From Desulfofundulus salinus (GTDB taxonomy: Bacteria; Bacillota; Desulfotomaculia; Desulfotomaculales; Desulfovirgulaceae): a DNA stretch of 43,990 nucleotides. The stretch spans positions 1,856,222 through 1,900,211 of the forward strand of contig NZ_RBWE01000001.1 of assembly GCF_003627965.1 (NCBI RefSeq). Direction: 5' to 3'. The notes beneath the pieces were generated by a model, which saw nothing but the letters and a program-made list of their open reading frames with translations, made no database searches and had not been told where the DNA came from. Made by a program: the position numbers and the translations under genes. The stretch's first letter is position 1. Every line of letters starts with the position of its first letter. Positions 1 through 42,397 of the stretch are shown here, in pieces.

Positions 1-34
1 CCCCTGTGTGCAGGGTTAATAAATAAGCCAGATT

Positions 35-592
35 ATGTCCCCACCTGATTGCAAGGTGGGGTTTATTTTACGCTTACACTGGATTGTGGGGGGCAAAGAT
101 GTAAGGGTGGAGTGGAACAGTAACGGCTCACATATTGATGCCGACTGGGTACAGTTGTGGCGCACGGATTCCACGTCAGGCATCTGGATGCCGGTGAAAG
201 ACATAACAGGCAGCGAAATAAACTCTTTTACGTGGACGGATACAATGGTTACTGCCGGCCTGAATTACAAGTACCAGATCCGGGCTTATAACACGTCTAA
301 CTGGTCCTGGGATGTGATCTGGGAATCGGATTGGGCAGTAAACCCCCGGCCCTTTAACGCCCCCGGCGGGCTAAAAGTAACTTACCGGGGGGACACTACG
401 GCAACTGTAACCTGGACACCGGTAAACGGGGCAGATCAGTATCAGGTTCAGGTCAGCACTGACGGGGGAGTTACCTGGCAGACATCAACCGTCAGCGGCC
501 CTCCCGTAACGGTCCCCAGGCCCTGCCAGGTGAGAGTTAAGGCCGGGACTCACGCAAGGAGCCAGTGGTCGGGTGTGCTTACGGTACAGTAA
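35..592 (+). CDS. FN3-like repeat protein, possible virion/adsorption protein
   Basis: The protein has 185 residues if ATG 35 is used. Two beta-sandwich-like repeats are visible, roughly residues 15-100 and 108-185. The second has fibronectin type III features (LKVTYRGDTTATVTWTPV, then YQVQVSTDGG), and both are rich in Trp and Tyr. I see no signal peptide, membrane helix or sorting motif. Two stops in frame (17-22) show that the ORF does not continue from the left, but the ATG sits inside a hairpin and has no clear ribosome site, so translation may begin later. It lies upstream of coat-like genes and a Zot-type ATPase, so a receptor-binding (pIII-like) role is possible. That role is inference from position only. 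Confidence 0.55.
   Translation: MSPPDCKVGFILRLHWIVGGKDVRVEWNSNGSHIDADWVQLWRTDSTSGIWMPVKDITGSEINSFTWTDTMVTAGLNYKYQIRAYNTSNWSWDVIWESDWAVNPRPFNAPGGLKVTYRGDTTATVTWTPVNGADQYQVQVSTDGGVTWQTSTVSGPPVTVPRPCQVRVKAGTHARSQWSGVLTVQ
39..61 (+). terminator. Hairpin at the left edge
   Basis: A 7-bp perfect stem (39-45 with 55-61) with a 9-nt loop is followed by a T-rich tract. It looks like a Rho-independent terminator of a gene ending left of the window. It overlaps the first codons of the following ORF, so that ORF's start at 35 is doubtful. Confidence 0.5.
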
Positions 593-713
593 AAGGTTAA
601 CTTGCTTCCAGGCTTGCATAATTGACCTGTAGCGCGAGATGTTTTGTCCTGAAGGTAATCACATTAACCCGGTAATTATCTCTTGCTACAGGGCAAATTA
701 GGAGGGAGGTGGG

Positions 714-1010
714 ATGAGTGTTTTTCAAACAGACGCTGGTGACGTTCTGAATAAATTGTGGATGGTTGTGCAATTTCTAGCCCCCATATATGCGATAGCC
801 TTTGGAATGCTTGGAGCACGTATGCTTATTGAATACGGGCTCGGGAAACTTATGGATAAGTTTTTCCCGGCAAAGTCCAAAACAACTGCCAAAACTAAAA
901 GTTCCACTACTACCAGCCAACGGCGCCGCCGGGCTTCAGTATATGTCAGCTCGGAAAGAAACCCCCAAATCAGGAGGACCAAAACAGGGGTTTATGTTTA
1001 CTATGATTAA
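714..1010 (+). CDS. Small membrane protein with basic tail, coat-like
   Basis: The protein has 98 residues, with a very strong ribosome site (AGGAGGGAGGTGGG) just before ATG 714. A polar N-terminus (about 1-15) is followed by one hydrophobic segment (about 16-40, WMVVQFLAPIYAIAFGMLGA) and then a Lys/Arg/Thr/Ser-rich tail with an RRRR run. This topology (short acidic N-terminus, single span, cationic tail) is that of inovirus coat proteins, whose tail contacts DNA, but the protein is longer than a typical major coat protein. A hairpin follows at 1021-1043, comparable to the terminator after the major coat gene in filamentous phages. No family is recognised. Confidence 0.65.
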   Translation: MSVFQTDAGDVLNKLWMVVQFLAPIYAIAFGMLGARMLIEYGLGKLMDKFFPAKSKTTAKTKSSTTTSQRRRRASVYVSSERNPQIRRTKTGVYVYYD

Positions 1011-1020
1011 TTCATCAGGT

Positions 1021-1043
1021 CCCGGGTAGAAAGAACACCCGGG
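1021..1043 (+). terminator. Hairpin after coat-like gene
   Basis: CCCGGGT (1021-1027) pairs with ACCCGGG (1037-1043) across a 9-nt loop. The following sequence is only moderately T-rich, so termination may be partial. It separates the 714-1010 gene from the next small ORF. Confidence 0.55.
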
Positions 1044-1128
1044 GCTTACTTTATTGCAAAAAGAATGCAGTTTTTATTCATTGTGCGAAGGCCTAACATA
1101 CCTCAAAATGGTATCAGGGGGTGTAATC

Positions 1129-1254
1129 ATGGGTGTCTTTGAGTTCTTCTTTGCGGCCACGGCAGGAATAGCGGCAGGGTTAGCCGTGGTGGTCATACCC
1201 TCCATGTATGTTTACAATAGGTATTTTAACTCCTCAAGGAGGAATAGGGCGTGA
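1129..1254 (+). CDS. 41-residue coat-like membrane peptide
   Basis: ATG 1129 follows a GGGGG-rich ribosome site. Longer versions starting near 1054 lack such a site. The product has 41 residues: MGVFEFFF, a 20-residue hydrophobic Ala/Val/Ile span, then YNRYFNSSRRNRA. Size, single span and an Arg-rich C-terminus are those expected of an inovirus major or minor coat protein. The stop overlaps the GTG of the next gene, so the two are probably translationally coupled. Homology cannot be shown by eye for such a short hydrophobic protein; the assignment rests on shape and on the Zot-type neighbour. Confidence 0.6.
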   Translation: MGVFEFFFAATAGIAAGLAVVVIPSMYVYNRYFNSSRRNRA

Positions 1255-1598
1255 TCTTTAAGCGAAAGAAAGAAGCGGTCGATGACGTTATACTGATAAA
1301 CGAAAACGAGATAAGGATTCTCGAAGTGACGGCACTGGACGAAAACTCCGTCCATGCCGGCAACCTTGTCCTGCCCCGGGCTGACGCGCAGGTAAGGTAT
1401 TACCCTGGGGGCGGTAGGGCGTTTATCTATGGGTACACCGGCCCTTACCTTGCCGAAAGTCAGAACATCGCGGATCTAGAAAAATCCGTTGTGCTGAAAA
1501 ACATGTTTAACTACGGATCAGCTTCTAAGCTGCAAAATATACAGTTCTATGTCATGCTAGCGGCCCTGATTATAACCATTTTTCTTTTACGTAATTAG
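1251..1598 (+). CDS. Tail-anchored membrane protein, unknown
   Basis: The protein has 115 residues from GTG 1251, which overlaps the previous stop by 4 nt and is preceded by AAGGAGG. A soluble N-terminal part of about 93 residues is followed by a C-terminal membrane span (FYVMLAALIITIFLL) ending at RN. No family is recognised. In the Zot cassette it could be a minor virion or assembly protein anchored in the inner membrane before particle extrusion, but this is inference. Confidence 0.65.
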   Translation: MIFKRKKEAVDDVILINENEIRILEVTALDENSVHAGNLVLPRADAQVRYYPGGGRAFIYGYTGPYLAESQNIADLEKSVVLKNMFNYGSASKLQNIQFYVMLAALIITIFLLRN

Positions 1599-1609
1599 GG
1601 GGGTAAAAG

Positions 1610-1951
1610 ATGGCCGAAGAAACTACCACCAGTGGGGGCAAGACCCTCCAGGATATAATGTCTAACGAGCTCTTTGCCAGTTCCCGGGGTGACCTGGTGG
1701 AAACCCTGCGGTTTATGGAGGGACACGGTACCCCTCTGAGTGAAATGCAGGTGCAGGGGGTAGCCCTCTTGCGCTACCTCCAAACCAGGAGAGGGGATAA
1801 AACTTACGAGCCTATTATCCAGACCATGACCAAGATGGCAAAAGATATTACTCCTCCCGGAGTGTTCGTCGAGGTCATCGAAAAGATGACACTGGGCGGT
1901 TTTGTGACCGGGAAAATAAACCTCCGCAAGGCTTTTGGAGGAGATAAATAA
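1610..1951 (+). CDS. Hypothetical protein of the Zot cassette
   Basis: The protein has 113 residues and is soluble and mostly helical in appearance. ATG 1610 is preceded by GGGGGG. It has no Cys cluster, nucleotide-binding motif or membrane span, and I recognise no family. Its TAA overlaps the ATG of the Zot-type ATPase by one base, so the two are probably co-translated and may work together, for example as assembly partner and motor. That is inference from the spacing. Confidence 0.65.
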   Translation: MAEETTTSGGKTLQDIMSNELFASSRGDLVETLRFMEGHGTPLSEMQVQGVALLRYLQTRRGDKTYEPIIQTMTKMAKDITPPGVFVEVIEKMTLGGFVTGKINLRKAFGGDK

Positions 1952-2658
1952 TGTATGTCTGGGTTTTCCAAGGCAACCTGGGGGAAGGTAAGACGTTCGG
2001 AATGAGTGTCCTGGCTCATTATTTCGCGGCCAAGGCCCGCCGGGCCGGGATACCGGTGGATCTGTACGCAAATTACGGGCTGAAAGGTGCCCGGCAGCTG
2101 AACCATTACACTGATTTTTACCGGGTGGCGAAAAGCCCAAACTCAATCTGCCTTTTAGACGAGGCCCACGTTAACCTTGACTCCCGGCTGTTCCACCGGG
2201 GGGCAAACATCTACATGACGCAGTTCTTTTTCTACCTCCGAAAGCTCCATTCCAGCCTTTTTATGACTACCCCTCACATTCGCAATCTGGATTCGCGAAT
2301 GCGGCAATTAACCAACATTCTTGTTGTCTGCCAGAGGGTAGGTGGGGGGTTTATGTATGACATATACGACTACCAGGCTGAAAGGCTCTTGAGGCGCAGG
2401 TTTATGCCCAAATATATCGTTCAGCAGTTGTTTGAGGTGGGGTTGTACGATACCCACGCCATCATCCGCAGCATTGAGTTTCCGGCCAACGAGCGGACCT
2501 TTGACAGCTTTTTGACAAAACTCATAGCGGTTAGAGACGGAGCGGATTTAAACGCCGTAATGGGGAAAACAGAGGACCCGGAAGAGATGGAAGAGGGTGA
2601 AGAGGTTGAACAAGAACCAGCACCAAGAAACAGAAAAAGAACGGCCCACGGCGTGTAA
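1951..2658 (+). CDS. Zot/pI-type P-loop ATPase
   Basis: The protein has 235 residues. Walker A is at residues 8-15 (GNLGEGKT) and Walker B near 66-71 (CLLDEAH). The later motif TTPHIRNLDSRMRQ matches the T-x(7)-D-x-R-x-R pattern of the zonular-occludens-toxin (Zot)/gene I family, which drives export and assembly of filamentous phage. The C-terminus is acidic then basic, with no membrane helix, whereas classical inovirus pI proteins have one. Membrane anchoring may therefore come from a neighbour such as the 1251-1598 product. Other small tailless viruses use distantly related packaging ATPases, so the exact virus type is open. Confidence 0.75.
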   Translation: MYVWVFQGNLGEGKTFGMSVLAHYFAAKARRAGIPVDLYANYGLKGARQLNHYTDFYRVAKSPNSICLLDEAHVNLDSRLFHRGANIYMTQFFFYLRKLHSSLFMTTPHIRNLDSRMRQLTNILVVCQRVGGGFMYDIYDYQAERLLRRRFMPKYIVQQLFEVGLYDTHAIIRSIEFPANERTFDSFLTKLIAVRDGADLNAVMGKTEDPEEMEEGEEVEQEPAPRNRKRTAHGV

Positions 2659-2773
2659 GTCCTTAGGAAATCCCTGGGGGACGGAACAACTTGACTGGCG
2701 CATGGTTGACGGTAAGTGGGTCAAGGATCCGGGGTGGTGGAGGAAGATCCCCCAGGCCAAAAGACGCACATAA
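2606..2773 (+). CDS. Possible small ORF overlapping the Zot gene
   Basis: A 55-residue reading frame starts at TTG 2606 in the +1 frame relative to the ATPase and runs past its stop to TAA 2771-2773. It is Trp/Lys-rich (GNPWGTEQLDWRMVDGKW). A GA-rich tract 5' of the TTG could serve as ribosome site. It explains the otherwise empty interval 2659-2785. No family is recognised; coding status is uncertain. Confidence 0.4.
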   Translation: MNKNQHQETEKERPTACKSLGNPWGTEQLDWRMVDGKWVKDPGWWRKIPQAKRRT

Positions 2774-2785
2774 TACCTTCGGCTA

Positions 2786-3112
2786 ATGTCTCTTAGGCGC
2801 AGGATACGGCCGGAACCGGAACGGAGTTATACGGGTTTCCGGCCTCATTATCTATTAAAAATGGCTTCGCATAATGCGGGAGGGGTAAATTTGATTAATT
2901 CCCCCGTCCGGGTACCGGAAGAAAACTTTACCCCCGGGGTGATTCGCAACGAGAAAAGAAAATACCCCCGGGTTAATCCGCCGAGGATATGCAGAAATTG
3001 TAAGCAAAACGACAACGGTTACTGCAATGTGTTTGGTAACTGGCATTACCGCCCTTCTGATTGCCTGTTTGCGGAAAAGTATGAAGGTGACCAGAGAATG
3101 GAGGAAGCATGA
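2786..3112 (+). CDS. Small Cys-cluster (zinc-ribbon-like) protein
   Basis: The protein has 108 residues. The C-terminal third carries C-x2-C-x6-C-x12-C (CRNCKQNDNGYC then DCLF), which could bind zinc or an Fe-S cluster. The N-terminus is strongly basic (MSLRRRIRPEPERSY), suggesting nucleic-acid binding. No good ribosome site precedes ATG 2786, so a later start is possible. The stop overlaps the ATG of the next gene (ATGA). Function is unknown. Confidence 0.55.
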   Translation: MSLRRRIRPEPERSYTGFRPHYLLKMASHNAGGVNLINSPVRVPEENFTPGVIRNEKRKYPRVNPPRICRNCKQNDNGYCNVFGNWHYRPSDCLFAEKYEGDQRMEEA

Positions 3113-3948
3113 TGCGGAAAATCCAAATCCGTGCTGACAGGATTCTCCGTCAGATAGCCCGGCGTCATAAGGATGAACTGTTCTTAACCGAGGTAAAGAA
3201 CGGGCCGACGCTATTTGGTGAAGGCCTCCTGATCATGGACGCCGTGGCCGTAAAAAAGTCCTGGAAGAAACCCTGCATCACAGGGTATGAAATAAAAACC
3301 AGCCGGCAGGATTTTCTACGGGATAACAAGTGGCCCTACTACCTGAAATACTGCCACCGCCTGTACTTTGCCTGCCCGGCGGGATTGATCGCGCCGGAGG
3401 AGGTGCCGGAAGATGTAGGACTTATCTACTACAACCCTGAAAAGGACTGTATCCACACCAAGAGGGCCGCCGCCTTCAGAGATATTGAGATACCTTGGAA
3501 AATGCTGTATTACATGCTCATATGCCGGTCCAAATCGGACAGGCACCCGTTTTTCAGCAGCCAGCGCGAATACTTGGAGGCATGGGTTCAGGATAAAGCC
3601 GAGCGAAAAGAGCTTGGCTGGCGGGTTAGAAACAAAATGACTGAAAAGATCGAGGAATTGACGAAAAGGGTAAGGGATCTAGAGTTTGAACTATCTTTGC
3701 AGAAAAGAGAAATCGAGGTTTTTAAAAGAGTTAAAGATATTCTGGCGAGATATGATGTCAACATCTACAACGGCGAGATAGAACGGAGCTTGGAGAATGT
3801 CCTGAGCCGCGGAACACCTCCAGTATTTCGGGACAAGCTGCGGGTAATCGCCCGGGAGGTGGAAAAACTCATGAAATTAACGGAAAGGATAACATGCCTG
3901 CCTGCGGAGCAATTAACATACAGCGCGATTAACGAAGGTGATCAATAG
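3109..3948 (+). CDS. MmcB-like nuclease-fold protein
   Basis: The protein has 279 residues. The N-terminal half (about 25-140) has a restriction-endonuclease-like core: a conserved Asp in LLIMDAVAVKKS followed by the E-x-K of GYEIKTSRQDF, then HRLYFACPAGLI and DVGLIYYN. This pattern is that of the MmcB/DUF-type PD-(D/E)xK proteins linked to DNA repair. The second half (about 175-230) is a charged coiled coil. It sits between the zinc-ribbon-like gene and the integrase with 4-nt and 1-nt overlaps, so it is part of the mobile element's operon. A role in element DNA processing is inference. Confidence 0.6.
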   Translation: MMRKIQIRADRILRQIARRHKDELFLTEVKNGPTLFGEGLLIMDAVAVKKSWKKPCITGYEIKTSRQDFLRDNKWPYYLKYCHRLYFACPAGLIAPEEVPEDVGLIYYNPEKDCIHTKRAAAFRDIEIPWKMLYYMLICRSKSDRHPFFSSQREYLEAWVQDKAERKELGWRVRNKMTEKIEELTKRVRDLEFELSLQKREIEVFKRVKDILARYDVNIYNGEIERSLENVLSRGTPPVFRDKLRVIAREVEKLMKLTERITCLPAEQLTYSAINEGDQ

Positions 3949-4817
3949 TGCAGGAGTTTCTTAATACCCTGGACGGCAGCACCGCCCGGGCATACCGGGA
4001 GGACCTGACCGACTTCGCCCGGTGGTTTGCCCATACCAACGGGCAGGATCCCACCCCGGAATTAGTGACCGGCATCGACCTGCGGGAGTACCAGGGGCAC
4101 ATGCTGGCGGTGCGCGGCCTTAAACCGGCCACCGTGAACCGCCGGCTGGCCGCCGTCCGGGCCTGGCTCCGGTGGGCCAGGGAGAACGGAATAATAGAGG
4201 ACCTGCCTTCCTTCCCCCGCCGGGCAGCCGAACCCAAAGGGGCTCCCCGGGCGCTATCCCGGGTGGAAGAGGCCCGTTTCCTTCGGGCCGTGGAGAGGGA
4301 AGGATCTCCCCGTGATCAGGCCCTGATTGCCCTCATGCTCCATGCCGGGCTGCGGGTGGGAGAGGCTGTCCGCACCCGCACCGCCGATGTAGAGATAAGT
4401 GAGCGCAAGGGTAAGGTGGTGGTCCGGGCGGGCAAGGGGATGAAAAGGCGGGAGGTGCCACTGTCAGCCGAGGCCCGGGCCATGATCCGGCCCTGGCTTT
4501 CCCAGGCCCGTGGGGAGTGGCTTTTCCCCGGCCTGGGTGATAAACACCTTTCCACCCGGGCCGCCCAGGACGTAGTGAAGAAATACGCTTACCTGGCGCG
4601 GCTGGACGTTGAACACGTTACCCCCCACGTCCTGCGGCATACCTTTGCCACCCGGCTTTTGCGCCAGGGGGTGGATATAGTGGTGGTTGCCGCTTTGCTT
4701 GGACATGCCCGCATAGACACCACCGCCAGGTACACCCGGCCCGGGTGGGCTGACCTGGAACGGGCCGTGGAAGGCTTACATGAATCCGTTAACAAAGGAG
4801 GCGTATCAAATGCGTAA
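3948..4817 (+). CDS. Tyrosine recombinase (XerC/D-like integrase)
   Basis: The protein has 289 residues, starting at GTG 3948, which overlaps the previous TAG. It has an N-terminal SAM-like core-binding domain (about 1-90) and a C-terminal catalytic domain. Catalytic residues are visible: Arg in HAGLRVGEA, Lys in RAGKGMKRREVP, HxxR in TPHVLRHTFATRLL, His in LLGHARIDTTARYTRP, with the nucleophile Tyr in the last. Length and motifs are typical of an active integrase. It probably catalyses integration of this element at the tRNA whose 3' end survives at 7249-7276. Confidence 0.9.
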   Translation: MQEFLNTLDGSTARAYREDLTDFARWFAHTNGQDPTPELVTGIDLREYQGHMLAVRGLKPATVNRRLAAVRAWLRWARENGIIEDLPSFPRRAAEPKGAPRALSRVEEARFLRAVEREGSPRDQALIALMLHAGLRVGEAVRTRTADVEISERKGKVVVRAGKGMKRREVPLSAEARAMIRPWLSQARGEWLFPGLGDKHLSTRAAQDVVKKYAYLARLDVEHVTPHVLRHTFATRLLRQGVDIVVVAALLGHARIDTTARYTRPGWADLERAVEGLHESVNKGGVSNA

Positions 4818-5319
4818 AGTATGTGCTGTCCTGTTAATTATGCTGGTGGCGGTTGCGGGTTGTGGCATTAAGAACGGCAACGGTACAAAAGATGGTGAGG
4901 GCAAAAAGGTAATCAAGGTGGGATTTATCGCTCCCCTGACAGGAGACAGGCGAGTACAGGGGGAAGCAGCCAGGAGAGGCTTTGAGCTTGCCATACAGCA
5001 GTATAAGGGTGACTTTAAAATTGTGCCTGTTATAGCTGATGACCGCAACAACGACATGACCTCTAAGGTTGCCAGAAAGCTTATCGAGCAGGACAAAATT
5101 GTAGCTCTTGTAAGTCCCCTGGCCAATCCTGCCCTGAACAACGATAAGGTGATCCTGCTAACCGGCACCCAACGGGACTTAGAACCTGATGCATTAACCA
5201 AGCTTACCTATGGCGTTACTAACCTGCTGCTCAACGCTATCAACAACGCGAACAGCGACAATCCGGTTAAAATTAAAAATGCACTAAACCAGGAGGCGAA
5301 AATCCTTGAGAGTAATTGA
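4810..5319 (+). pseudogene. Internally deleted LivK-type binding lipoprotein
   Basis: ATG 4810 follows AAAGGAGG and overlaps the integrase stop. The product starts with a lipoprotein signal (MRKVCAVLLIMLVAVAGC). It then matches the start of the LivK encoded at 10049 (VIKVGFIAPLTGD, then ADDRNN) up to about residue 125 (VILLTGT). It then jumps in frame to the C-terminal part (EPDALTKLTYGVTNLLLNAINNANSDNP) and ends in an unrelated tail. About 175 residues of the periplasmic-binding fold are missing, including the hinge and much of the ligand site. It cannot bind ligand normally. It may be a remnant, or a small lipoprotein kept for another use; the reading frame and ribosome site are intact. Confidence 0.75.
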
Positions 5320-5815
5320 GCATAACGGCAGACTGAAGGTGGACTGGCAGGCAGTACGGAACCGGAACAAAGGCTGTATATGCGTCGAAAAAGACTACCA
5401 ATTCCCCGGAGGGTTCTATTTACGGCATAAGGAAACCCCTTACTACCTGACCGCCAGCAGGTACGACATAGAATGCATGATCGAAAATGCCCTGGCCGCC
5501 CTGGGGCTGAATACCGGCCCGATCATCGTGCCCACCCGGGAACAGGCCGACATGATCAACATGATGATCCAGCCCACCATGGAGGTCCTGGACACCCGGT
5601 TACCCGGGGCAAACGGGTGGTTTTTAAACCTCCTGTGGGCCGTCCTGGGTAAGGTGAAAGTACATCCCCGGGCGGTAAATATTGCCGATGGTGCCCAGTC
5701 CGCCATAAATGGCCTGGAAGGGCAGGATGATATGCTGCAGCGGTTTCTTTTTGAGTTAACCCCGGAAGAAAGAGAGAAACTTTGGGCGGTGGTGAGTGAG
5801 TGGTGCCAGAGGTAA
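5306..5815 (+). CDS. Hypothetical protein in element cargo
   Basis: The protein has 169 residues from TTG 5306, preceded by AGGAGG at good spacing and overlapping the LivK remnant. It looks soluble: an N-terminal beta-rich part, a middle YDIECMIENALAALGL helix, then a C-terminal helical part (LTPEEREKLWAVVSEWC). It overlaps the start of the dCMP deaminase gene, so these are co-translated. No family is recognised. Confidence 0.6.
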   Translation: MRVIEHNGRLKVDWQAVRNRNKGCICVEKDYQFPGGFYLRHKETPYYLTASRYDIECMIENALAALGLNTGPIIVPTREQADMINMMIQPTMEVLDTRLPGANGWFLNLLWAVLGKVKVHPRAVNIADGAQSAINGLEGQDDMLQRFLFELTPEEREKLWAVVSEWCQR

Positions 5816-6219
5816 GACCGACATTTGATGAGATATACATGGACGTGGTGGACGTCATCTCCCGCCGGTCCACATGCCTGCGCAAAAAGGTGGGGGCGGT
5901 GATTGTGGTGGACCGGCGCATCCTCTCCCACGGTTACAAACACTGCATTGATACGGGACGTTGTTTGAAGGATTTAGCCGGCCGGGAAGACTACAAACCC
6001 TGCGTCCACGCCGAGCAGAACGCCATCTGCCTCTGTGCCAAGCGCGGCCTGGCTGTGAAGGGCGGGACCATGTATGTGAACGCGGATCCCTGCTTGACCT
6101 GCGCCAAGCTGATTGTCTCCTGTGCTATTTCCCGGGTGGTAGTGCGCCGGGAAGGGCATACGGACGAGGGAATAGAGTTTTTGTGGCGGCATGGTGTGAG
6201 GGTGGAGGAGTGGCGGTGA
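5800..6219 (+). CDS. dCMP deaminase (ComEB-like)
   Basis: The protein has 139 residues. It is a zinc-dependent cytidine/deoxycytidylate deaminase fold with HAEQNAI (zinc His and catalytic Glu) and PCLTCAK (two zinc Cys), plus the N-terminal RSTCLRKKVGAVIV motif. It converts dCMP to dUMP for dTTP synthesis. Such genes are frequent phage and mobile-element cargo. The start is GTG 5800 or 5803, inside the previous gene's end. A strong terminator follows immediately at 6222-6247, making this the last gene of the operon that begins at or before the integrase. Confidence 0.85.
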   Translation: MVPEVRPTFDEIYMDVVDVISRRSTCLRKKVGAVIVVDRRILSHGYKHCIDTGRCLKDLAGREDYKPCVHAEQNAICLCAKRGLAVKGGTMYVNADPCLTCAKLIVSCAISRVVVRREGHTDEGIEFLWRHGVRVEEWR

Positions 6220-6221
6220 GT

Positions 6222-6252
6222 AATCCCCGGGCTCAGGCCCGGGGATTTTTGT
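6222..6252 (+). terminator. Rho-independent terminator
   Basis: An 11-bp perfect stem (6222-6232 with 6237-6247) with loop TCAG is followed by T-rich sequence. It ends the integrase-deaminase transcription unit. Confidence 0.9.
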
Positions 6253-6416
6253 TTTGTTTGCTTTTGGGGCATATTATTGTATTATCGGATGTATAAGGGA
6301 GCTTGTGGAAGGTGGAGCATCATTTTAGGCGGAAAGCCAAAATTGCAAAATATAGATTGGTTGCATATACTAAAGTTACGAAACATAGAGATAATGGAAG
6401 AGAGGGGGCGGTGAAC

Positions 6417-6587
6417 GTGACTCAATTTGTCCAAAAAATTCATAGCATTAAACTGCCACCTCATCAAATGAGAGAACTTGGTTTGTCTGAAGGCTGGCAA
6501 AAAAAGGTTCCGGCTCAATACATTGAAAAGGTAGTAAAAACCGCTGAGAGGTTTAAAAAAGATCTAAGGGAGTTGTCCAAACGTTAA
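6417..6587 (+). CDS. Putative antitoxin of a Doc-type pair
   Basis: A short basic protein lies directly upstream of a Fic/Doc-type gene. The open frame runs from 6303, but the best ribosome site (AGAGGGGG) fits GTG 6417, giving 56 residues (MTQFVQKIHSIKLPPHQMRELGL to KDLRELSKR). It is followed within 30 nt by the toxin reading frame, the usual antitoxin-toxin order. No Phd-type motif is clear, so the antitoxin call rests on context. The region is more AT-rich than its surroundings. Confidence 0.5.
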   Translation: MTQFVQKIHSIKLPPHQMRELGLSEGWQKKVPAQYIEKVVKTAERFKKDLRELSKR

Positions 6588-6591
6588 AAAG

Positions 6592-7074
6592 GTAAAGTAT
6601 CTGAGCCTCGAAGAATTGTTGATTATTCATTATGTTGTGGCAGATGAGTATTTTAGTGAGTTTTACGGCAGGGATGGCGACGAAGAGAGAGGGGTTAAAG
6701 ACCCCTCTTTAGTGCTTTCCGCCCTCGGTGCTCCAAAACACACTTTTGATGGGAAGGAGCTGTACCCGGATATACTGTCCAAAGCTGCTGCTTTATTTCG
6801 TTCGATAGCCCAGAACCATGGCTTCTATAATGCCAACAAACGGACGGCGATGATGGCTACGATAATTTTCCTAGAAGAAAATGGCTATGAGGTTATTGCA
6901 CCAAAAAACAAGATGTATCGGTTAGCAATGAAAATAGTTATGGATAAACCAAGTGTCAATAATATTGCGCGGACTTTAAAAAAATATACCAGAGTCCCGG
7001 AGCGCAAGCCTAAGTCTAAGCTTGAGGTGTACTGGGATAAGATAATTAGCTTGATAGAAAACCTGCGCGATTGA
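6592..7074 (+). CDS. doc: Doc-like Fic-fold toxin, start codon unclear
   Basis: The core motif HGFYNANKRTAMMATIIFLEENGY matches the HxFx(D/N)(A/G)NKR active site of Doc, the Fic-fold kinase toxin that inactivates EF-Tu by phosphorylation. Translation from 6592 would give the family-like N-terminus KYLSLEELLIIHYVVADEYF, but its first codon is GTA, not a normal start. The first standard alternatives are TTG 6616 or 6619 (CTG 6601 is also possible), which remove the conserved KYLSLEE. The gene may use a weak start or may have lost its start. The C-terminus extends about 30 residues beyond the core. Confidence 0.7.
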   Translation, partial: VKYLSLEELLIIHYVVADEYFSEFYGRDGDEERGVKDPSLVLSALGAPKHTFDGKELYPDILSKAAALFRSIAQNHGFYNANKRTAMMATIIFLEENGYEVIAPKNKMYRLAMKIVMDKPSVNNIARTLKKYTRVPERKPKSKLEVYWDKIISLIENLRD

Positions 7075-7248
7075 AGATATAGCGAGGTTTGTTTAGCTTA
7101 AGTATCTTTTCCGCTTGCCGTCGCGGGCTCTAACTGTCCCGGTTTGGCCAGGTTCCTGGTCGGCGCTGCGCAGGAGTCGAGTGGTAAAGTGGCCCCCGAG
7201 GAAGTGACCCCGGGGGAGGTTAAGAAAAAGGATATTTTACGGGAATTC

Positions 7249-7276
7249 GCAGGTTCAAATCCTGTCATCCCGACCA
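7249..7276 (+). repeat. 3' end of a tRNA (tRNA-Pro type), likely attR
   Basis: The 28 nt contain a complete T-arm (5-bp stem, loop TTCAAAT), the 7-nt 3' acceptor strand CATCCCG, discriminator A and CCA. The matching 5' acceptor strand CGGGATG, D-arm and anticodon arm are absent upstream; instead unrelated sequence runs up to the T-arm. This is the expected scar of integrase-mediated insertion into the 3' end of a tRNA gene. The pairing partner CGGGATG is typical of bacterial tRNA-Pro. The intact tRNA should lie left of the window, on the same strand. Confidence 0.7.

Positions 7277-7342: not shown

Positions 7343-8054
<712 letters not shown>

Positions 8055-42321: not shown

Positions 42322-42397
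<76 letters not shown>

Follow-up and report, generated by a model that had tools for sequence, protein, structure and literature searches.

A prophage-like element with a large serine recombinase that appears to split the host tRNA-Pro(CGG) gene in Desulfofundulus salinus and to carry its own replacement

In tRNA-dependent lysogeny, as described for the actinobacteriophages Fionnbharth, Gabriela, Gaia and others, the integrases are of the tyrosine family and the requirement for the tRNA has been shown (PMC10865867; this paper and the others cited here are represented by the sections available to us). Where the tRNA is not rebuilt (rows of Table 2 of that paper), the common core measures 8-17 bp. 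The tRNA of Fionnbharth has its own measured promoter and is not the host's own allele. The same paper speculates that a plasmid-borne tRNA can itself act as attB, names the Lactobacillus prophage Lj965 as a candidate, and asks in its Discussion how far tRNA-dependent lysogeny reaches beyond the actinobacteriophages. In Sinorhizobium meliloti, a host tRNA is replaced by a phage-borne isoacceptor resembling the tRNAs of unrelated bacteria; the 88 site-specifically integrated sequences described there have tyrosine integrases, one of which also resembles a serine recombinase (PMC11476347, PMC12429752). Two Mycobacterium surveys likewise assign tRNA sites to tyrosine integrases (PMC8092301, PMC10654092). 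The serine integrase system of Bxb1 uses an 8-bp common core and cleaves about a central dinucleotide, which alone sets polarity (PMC3642061). In the available sections of the open-licence literature that we searched, we found no serine-recombinase case of tRNA-dependent lysogeny (the integrase type of Lj965 aside).

The window analysed here is a stretch of 43,990 nucleotides of Desulfofundulus salinus (contig NZ_RBWE01000001.1; G000:C1:1856222-1900211). Very probably it holds the right-hand part of a prophage-like element in which a large serine recombinase (LSR) splits the single-copy host tRNA-Pro(CGG) gene in its T-arm beside adk, and which carries a spare tRNA that is predicted not to be a target. 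The element's left part, at G000:C1:1833835-1856221, comprises attL, the replacement tRNA, the serine recombinase, and repressor-like and DnaB genes. A 100-N assembly gap lies inside the element, just left of window base 1. The features are as follows (positions are those of the window, or of region L035 around the left junction):

1 to 7246: right-hand part of the element
1951 to 2658, + strand: Zot/protein-I-like ATPase (weak family matches)
3109 to 3948, + strand: MmcB-like DNA repair protein
3948 to about 4817, + strand: tyrosine recombinase, beside the Zot-like gene in related viral contigs too
5800 to 6219, + strand: dCMP deaminase-like gene, cargo near attR
6303 to 6587, + strand: small open reading frame without a family match, cargo adjoining attR
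6616 to 7074, + strand: Fic/Doc-family gene, cargo adjoining attR
7230 to 7250, + strand: element-side arm of attR, half of the imperfect inverted repeat of attP
7247 to 7254, + strand: TCGCAGGT, 8 bp common to both junctions, with the dyad centre AG|GT
7247 to 7276, + strand: 3' part of the putatively split host tRNA-Pro(CGG), its last 30 nt with CCA (the scar itself)
7413 to 8054, + strand: adk, host gene and the next gene after the scar (Pfam ADK, 1.2e-62)
L035 7667 to 7743: the element's complete tRNA-Pro(CGG), 54 bp inside the left junction
L035 7750 to 9441, - strand: serine recombinase (LSR), 563 aa, tail-to-tail with the element tRNA and 6 bp beyond its end

The sequence GCAGGTTCAAATCCTGTCATCCCGACCA occupies 7249-7276 on the + strand and has a single match in the window; none of 100 shuffled windows contained it, even with 3 mismatches tolerated. 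The tRNA-derived stretch is in fact 30 nt long (TCGCAGGTTCAAATCCTGTCATCCCGACCA, 7247-7276), because the blastn match of the right flank to the empty site begins at 7247. Neither ARAGORN nor Rfam (at its gathering threshold) reported a complete tRNA at 7249-7276, and the sole tRNA that they find in the window is a tRNA-Trp at 42322-42397. When joined to the host 5' part, the scar folds as tRNA-Pro(CGG). The gene that follows it, adk, flanks the site in the D. salinus genome, in relatives with an empty site and at other occupied sites. The first-pass annotation had read 7249-7276 as the 3' end of a tRNA-Pro, left as an attachment scar at the right border of an element next to adk, and each of these points is borne out. 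The scar is the attR of an integrated element of ~29.6 kb, and this element is not of the ordinary kind.

An intact tRNA ending in the same 28 nt had also been predicted on the left, but it is absent: the 25-nt 3' end has one exact occurrence in the whole genome, and the only other match within 3 mismatches belongs to a tRNA-Pro(TGG) 71 kb away on the opposite strand. This gene (at 1792198, minus strand, 3 mismatches in 25) was rejected as a partner. A search upstream for a tRNA-Pro with the same end leads instead to a broken 5' part sharing 8 bp with the scar, and then to a separate complete tRNA-Pro(CGG). Thus the earlier reading stands for the tRNA-Pro 3' end, the scar and the right border and falls for the intact left-hand tRNA; it had made its model of 3'-end rebuilding depend on a tRNA with this 3' end upstream, and by that clause the model fails. 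The host 5' part (56 nt, CGGGATGTAGCTCAGTTTGGCTAGAGCGCACGGTTCGGGACCGTGAGGTCGCAGGT; L035 7557-7612, equal to G000:C1:1833779-1833834) lies 29.6 kb to the left of the scar on the same strand, as seen in an Rfam search of the genome and in the left region. It ends after nt 56, where non-tRNA sequence (GCGTTCTCACGCATAATACCC) begins, and the broken left locus gave no tRNA call on its own. The two halves share only the 8 bp, and joined there they form a 78-nt tRNA-Pro(CGG) with all stems paired, including one G-U in the T-stem. As the halves are complementary and relatives have an intact tRNA at this locus, we read the integration as having broken the host tRNA-Pro(CGG) in its T-arm.

At E 1e-6 the rebuilt tRNA had a match in 108 of the 113 genomes of the order, and in 80 of the 80 that were of good quality. 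Six relatives of the same family (G061-G066) have the exact 78-mer intact; they carry the whole tRNA and not the scrap that the first-pass annotation had wondered about in element-free relatives; a seventh (G068) has a 96% copy. Within this family of 9 genomes, those without an intact copy are D. salinus itself and G067, both carriers of the element. In G062 and G065 the DUF3786 gene, the tRNA and adk follow one another without interruption. The left flank of D. salinus aligns to tRNA nt 56 and its right flank from nt 49, the overlap being the 8 bp. In G061 and G064 the left gene is present, adk is absent within 1.5 kb to the right of the tRNA, and something other than adk comes after it.

The same site shows further variation across the order. 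Unrelated genes follow an intact tRNA-Pro(CGG) where adk is expected in L051 (G061), in L053 (G064; 1869-2534) and in L052 (G094, reverse strand; about 2000-2870), so the interval between the tRNA and adk varies in other relatives too; one of these genes has, by eye, a helix-turn-helix-like sequence. Five contigs end inside tRNA-Pro(CGG) (C71 and C42 of G078, C181 of G045, C46 of G032 and C8 of G087), which matches expectation if repeated or variable elements often occupy the site. In G083:C237 a gap of Ns breaks the tRNA-Pro(CGG) beside adk (L088, about 1000-1230), with the anticodon arm repeated on its two sides, and this is either another occupied site or a misassembled one. Lone 3' ends of tRNA-Pro(CGG), with 91-92% identity and no 5' part within 2 kb, stand at G039:C12:16984-17042 (L090, nt 20-78) and at G099:C150:3020-3066 (L098, nt 32-78); they are either other attachment scars or decayed copies of the gene. 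Finally, in G090:C210 (L225, L226) a tRNA-Pro(CGG) gene occurs twice, as identical copies in the same orientation at a distance of 36 kb. By eye, the genes between them look to be of phage-tail type, and this is perhaps a conventional island that rebuilds this tRNA.

A search for the LSR in the 113 genomes at E 1e-20 gave one close relative besides that of D. salinus, in Desulfotomaculum copahuensis LMa1 (G067; 84% protein identity); this cut-off misses the LSR of G030, a genome that surfaced via its tRNA. The same species was the single match in a scan of the genome contigs, which detects close relatives only. Distant LSR matches in G019 and G039 had no tRNA in the stretch examined. The attL of D. 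copahuensis is the same as here: the host 5' part is followed by a complete tRNA-Pro(CGG) and by the LSR. Its attR, which is on a different contig, is the same too and leads on to adk; no tRNA was called at that attR. The viral contig IMGVR_UViG_3300034520_000280, whose record is possibly a fragment, is syntenic with the element and encodes an LSR 96% identical to that of D. salinus. There the LSR and the tRNA stand beside an uncut attP (L044/L076) in which both att halves are joined: the left half is the arm at 7230-7250 of the window and the right half is the arm of attL, which lies outside the window (L035 from 7613). The order attachment site, 54 bp, tRNA, LSR is thus found in all three elements, and each element with this LSR (3/3) has a complete tRNA-Pro(CGG) beside it. 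A Zot search in D. copahuensis gave no match, which suggests that the module travels with different cargo, an empty answer alone showing little. The attL pattern had no matches in viral contigs. One further viral contig that matched the attP pattern (L215) was taken as a chance hit, the match being inside a coding gene with no tRNA or LSR match in 8.9 kb.

The LSR has a Resolvase domain with a Pfam score of 91.1 bits (cut-off 23.3) and a Recombinase domain that is barely over its cut-off (22.8 against 21.1 bits). It matches the PHROG integrase family phrog_95 (E 4.2e-78), and its catalytic domain matches the TP901-1 integrase among solved structures (E 2.3e-8); identity to the 12 listed phage records is 24-26%. 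Pfam reported no zinc beta-ribbon at E 0.001 for this LSR and did report one for that of G030. The best dyad of attP is centred on AG|GT, with 13-14 of 20 arm pairs compared to 9-11 for the next best centre (viral attP and two rebuilt attP). A long protein with Resolvase and Recombinase domains and a partly symmetric attP with one dyad centre are both as expected for a large serine recombinase.

The element's tRNA is identical at 77 of 77 positions across the three elements. Between the elements of D. salinus and D. copahuensis the 54-bp spacer is 72% and the LSR DNA 77% identical, and the chance of an unconstrained 77-mer staying identical is about 1e-9. Compared to the host tRNA, the element's copy differs at 9 positions and one gap, and a 32-nt middle stretch is identical. 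Among the differences is a compensated flip in the T-stem, from GCAGG/CCTGT in the host to GCACG/CGTGT in the element, which keeps the fold and turns the crossover centre AGGT into ACGT (central GG to CG). By the logic of Bxb1, as given in the available sections of PMC3642061, the changed central dinucleotide should make the element tRNA a non-target, and thus immune to its own integrase.

Nine genomes of another family (f16) have the 77-mer of the element as a complete gene, with adk beside 7 of the 9 loci; of the other two, one lies where its contig stops and the other shows no adk match in 552 bp. The T-arm pattern AGGT/ACGT is matched in 22 genomes of f16, with ACGT in 20 and AGGT in 2, these being pattern matches not individually confirmed as tRNA-Pro(CGG). 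In f1, the genomes with an intact gene have AGGT in 7 of 7 cases. As f16 mostly has ACGT and f1 has AGGT, the element seems to carry the natural allele of a non-target lineage. The GG-to-CG change matches a natural variant of that other family, and may therefore have been inherited and not selected for immunity. All 42 tRNA genes found by Rfam in the D. salinus genome were typed, and those for proline are the TGG gene and the element's CGG gene only. That the element carries the sole CGG copy among these 42, together with the 77/77 conservation, lends indirect support to a requirement for this tRNA in viable lysogens. CCG accounts for 69 of the 223 proline codons in 12 window ORFs. A tRNA-Pro(TGG) could read CCG by wobble, in which case the cell might manage without the CGG tRNA.

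How could the replacement tRNA be expressed? A promoter-like sequence, TTGACT-17-GATAAT, lies upstream of the broken host half and is kept in relatives. A scan of L035 7400-7800 gave this 1 promoter-like site (0.2 expected) and no terminator-like site. As a simple consensus scan thus found none between attL and the element tRNA, transcription of that tRNA after integration probably starts from the host tRNA promoter. In the viral contig, the 400 bp scanned contained no promoter-like site aimed at the tRNA.

We propose the following mechanism, starting from the split halves, the empty sites, the uncut attP, the module in three elements and the T-stem flip, which are read directly from the sequences. 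The LSR would insert the element beside adk, in the T-arm of the tRNA-Pro(CGG) gene, of which the host has a single copy. Because attP and attB share only about 8 bp, the tRNA would be cut into a 56-nt 5' part at attL and a 3' part at attR and would not be rebuilt, and the element's complete tRNA-Pro(CGG) would take over the lost function. The T-stem flip would keep the fold of the replacement and, through the GG-to-CG change at the crossover, spare it as a target, while the host tRNA promoter, now reading into the element, would drive its expression. We infer that the LSR does the cutting, that the carried tRNA is needed for a viable lysogen, that it is immune, and that it has captured the host promoter.

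Several other explanations were weighed against this mechanism. A tRNA 3' end at the element border and a complete tRNA-Pro(CGG) at the left border could also result from canonical integration, in which the left-hand tRNA would have regained its 3' end from the element, with the scar as the displaced original. We regard this as extremely improbable: the left complete tRNA differs from the rebuilt host tRNA by the 9 positions and one gap given above, its start is 54 bp in from the junction, the host 5' part stops after nt 56 and runs into non-tRNA sequence, and the common core is only 8 bp. The left junction sequence and the empty sites together rule out 3'-end rebuilding. The complete tRNA might instead be a tandem paralogue of the host, of whose two copies the element struck one, since it has the same anticodon and shares the 32-nt middle stretch with the host gene; however, it sits between the halves of the broken gene, the viral contig has it at the same 54-bp distance from attP, and the empty-site loci L055 and L056 have no such copy within about 1.5 kb, which makes a paralogue hardly credible.

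The 100-N gap just left of the window raises the question of a wrong contig join, with two unrelated tRNA parts. Yet the two parts fit together exactly, relatives have these flanks in one unbroken stretch, the viral contig spans the gap region with the same gene order, and an independent assembly from another genus has the same two junctions (on two contigs), so that an assembly artefact is most improbable. The tyrosine recombinase at 3948 could be the integrase for the site, with the LSR as a passenger. Its gene is intact, of an integrase family and inside the element, and published tRNA-dependent lysogeny uses tyrosine integrases (PMC10865867, in its available sections). However, the LSR, the tRNA and the attachment site are found together in 3 of 3 elements, with an uncut viral attP, and this attP is a dyad with one centre. 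Moreover, D. copahuensis has the module and both junctions and gave no Zot match (which by itself shows little), and the tyrosine recombinase gene is kept beside Zot in L210-L212, where no tRNA was found in contigs of only 4-5 kb. We consider a role of the tyrosine recombinase at this site to be unlikely, and integration by the LSR remains our preferred reading.

The LSR element resembles tRNA-dependent lysogeny in several respects: attB overlaps a host tRNA gene, the core is short (8 bp), the tRNA is unrebuilt at attL and attR, and a complete spare of the same isotype is carried. As in Fionnbharth, the carried tRNA is not the host's own allele; in contrast to the promoter-bearing tRNA of Fionnbharth, no promoter was seen here, and the host tRNA promoter lies upstream. 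The enzymes differ as well, tRNA-dependent lysogeny having tyrosine-family integrases and the gene at the att site here encoding Resolvase and Recombinase domains, with a dyad attP. In contrast to the actinobacteriophage cases, the site is in the T-arm and the hosts are Desulfotomaculum relatives, not Actinobacteria. The carried tRNA also lacks the central dinucleotide, unlike a plasmid-borne tRNA that acts as attB, as speculated in the available sections of PMC10865867. Since the integrase is not of the tyrosine family, and since the element is known here from sequence, whereas the requirement for the tRNA was shown in the actinobacteriophages, we regard it as a predicted serine-recombinase counterpart of tRNA-dependent lysogeny and not as a member. 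The cases described in S. meliloti (as far as the available sections go) are similar in that an element-borne isoacceptor replaces the host tRNA gene, and differ in their tyrosine integrases.

The element shares with TP901-1, Bxb1 and phiC31 the Resolvase and Recombinase domains, short and partly symmetric att sites and a crossover at a central dinucleotide, and with Bxb1 also the 8-bp common core. Unlike these, its target is inside a tRNA gene and a spare is carried. A tRNA 3' end at one border is found in canonical tRNA-targeting phages and islands as well; here no intact tRNA is rebuilt at the other junction, and a whole replacement tRNA is present instead. The element is a clean candidate outside the Actinobacteria with a different class of integrase, and this tRNA is also the site of a second, unrelated serine recombinase. 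The case suggests a reason for the presence of one tRNA beside the integrase in some elements, a way for a recombinase that destroys its target to use a tRNA gene, and a way for the spare to stay safe from the element's enzyme. The set of LSR, attP and attB is testable. Island finders that rely on repeated tRNA 3' ends may miss such elements.

The second case is G030 (family f5, same order), where a different element appears to interrupt this tRNA locus. The 5' part of the tRNA (nt 1-33) is followed, after 96 bp, by a complete tRNA-Pro(CGG) of a different type; then come several genes, among them that of an LSR, and beyond these the 3' part (nt 15-77) and adk. The G030 LSR is about 560 aa long, has a zinc ribbon besides its Resolvase and Recombinase domains, and shows about 20% identity to the D. 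salinus LSR. The two tRNA parts share GTTTGGTAAAGCGCACG, 17 bp from the D-loop to the anticodon stem; they have drifted, and the dyad is weak (best 11/20, next 10). In a viral relative of this LSR (48%), a tRNA-Pro(CGG) lies about 100 bp from the LSR gene. Because the arrangement of the G030 type (LSR, att, tRNA) differs from that of the window element, the two cases look convergent. By eye, TTGCTT-17-TATAAT stands just upstream of the complete tRNA of G030, where the scan reported none; this spare may have its own promoter. We put forward tentatively, at a little below an even chance, that serine-recombinase elements evolved such a self-contained cut-and-spare module more than once, with a spare that is a natural allele of another bacterial family, immune through its T-stem flip, and promoterless, being expressed only once it stands behind the host tRNA promoter; integration and replacement would then be a single event. 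The points on the immune foreign allele and the lack of a promoter concern the window element.

We also surveyed 110 PF07508 loci of the order, 30 with flanks of about 1.5 kb and 80 with flanks of up to 2.5 kb, some cut by contig ends and all drawn from the best-scoring matches. As the strongest Pfam matches were sampled and the LSRs of D. salinus and G030 are outside the sample, the survey gives no frequency. No further split-tRNA case was found among the 110 loci. A complete tRNA was present at 5 (Leu-GAG twice, Ala-CGC twice and Arg-CCG), with no second, broken copy nearby in the stretch examined. In these loci (L121, L124, L145, L163 and L170) the LSR genes are close to complete host-like tRNAs, and in two of them, L121 and L124, the recombinase reading frame stays open into the tRNA 3' end. 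The use of tRNA 3' ends by serine recombinases may be commoner than supposed. Comparison with 59 tRNAs showed only a short tRNA-like piece at 3 of the 110 (L118, L132 and L134). The piece near the LSR of L118/L222 (6339-6362; G095) is a 24-nt 5' part of tRNA-Leu(GAG); a 33-nt 3' end of tRNA-Ser(GCT) stands near the LSRs of L132 and L134/L223 (16733-16765) and in L224 (G099, G100). No partner for the L118, L132 and L134 pieces was found in 12-20 kb.

As to its gene content, the ~30-kb element encodes a DnaB helicase, two SLT transglycosylases and several fibronectin-III proteins besides the Zot/protein-I-like ATPase. Among the element genes scanned, none was assigned to a capsid, portal or terminase family, and matches to tail families arise mostly via the fibronectin-III repeats. 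The Zot-like protein is 100% identical in viral contig IMGVR_UViG_3300034520_000280. Relatives of the element are present in IMG/VR, some as contigs of only 4-5 kb (L209, L210-L213), and in the short contigs L210, L211 and L212 the tyrosine recombinase is kept beside the Zot-like gene, with no tRNA found there. The element may be a larger type of Zot-bearing virus than the classical filamentous phages. Where D. salinus has the dCMP deaminase and Fic/Doc genes (5800-7074), the viral contig has several small open reading frames (L044 6990-11050), and the right end of the element looks like a zone of cargo exchange.
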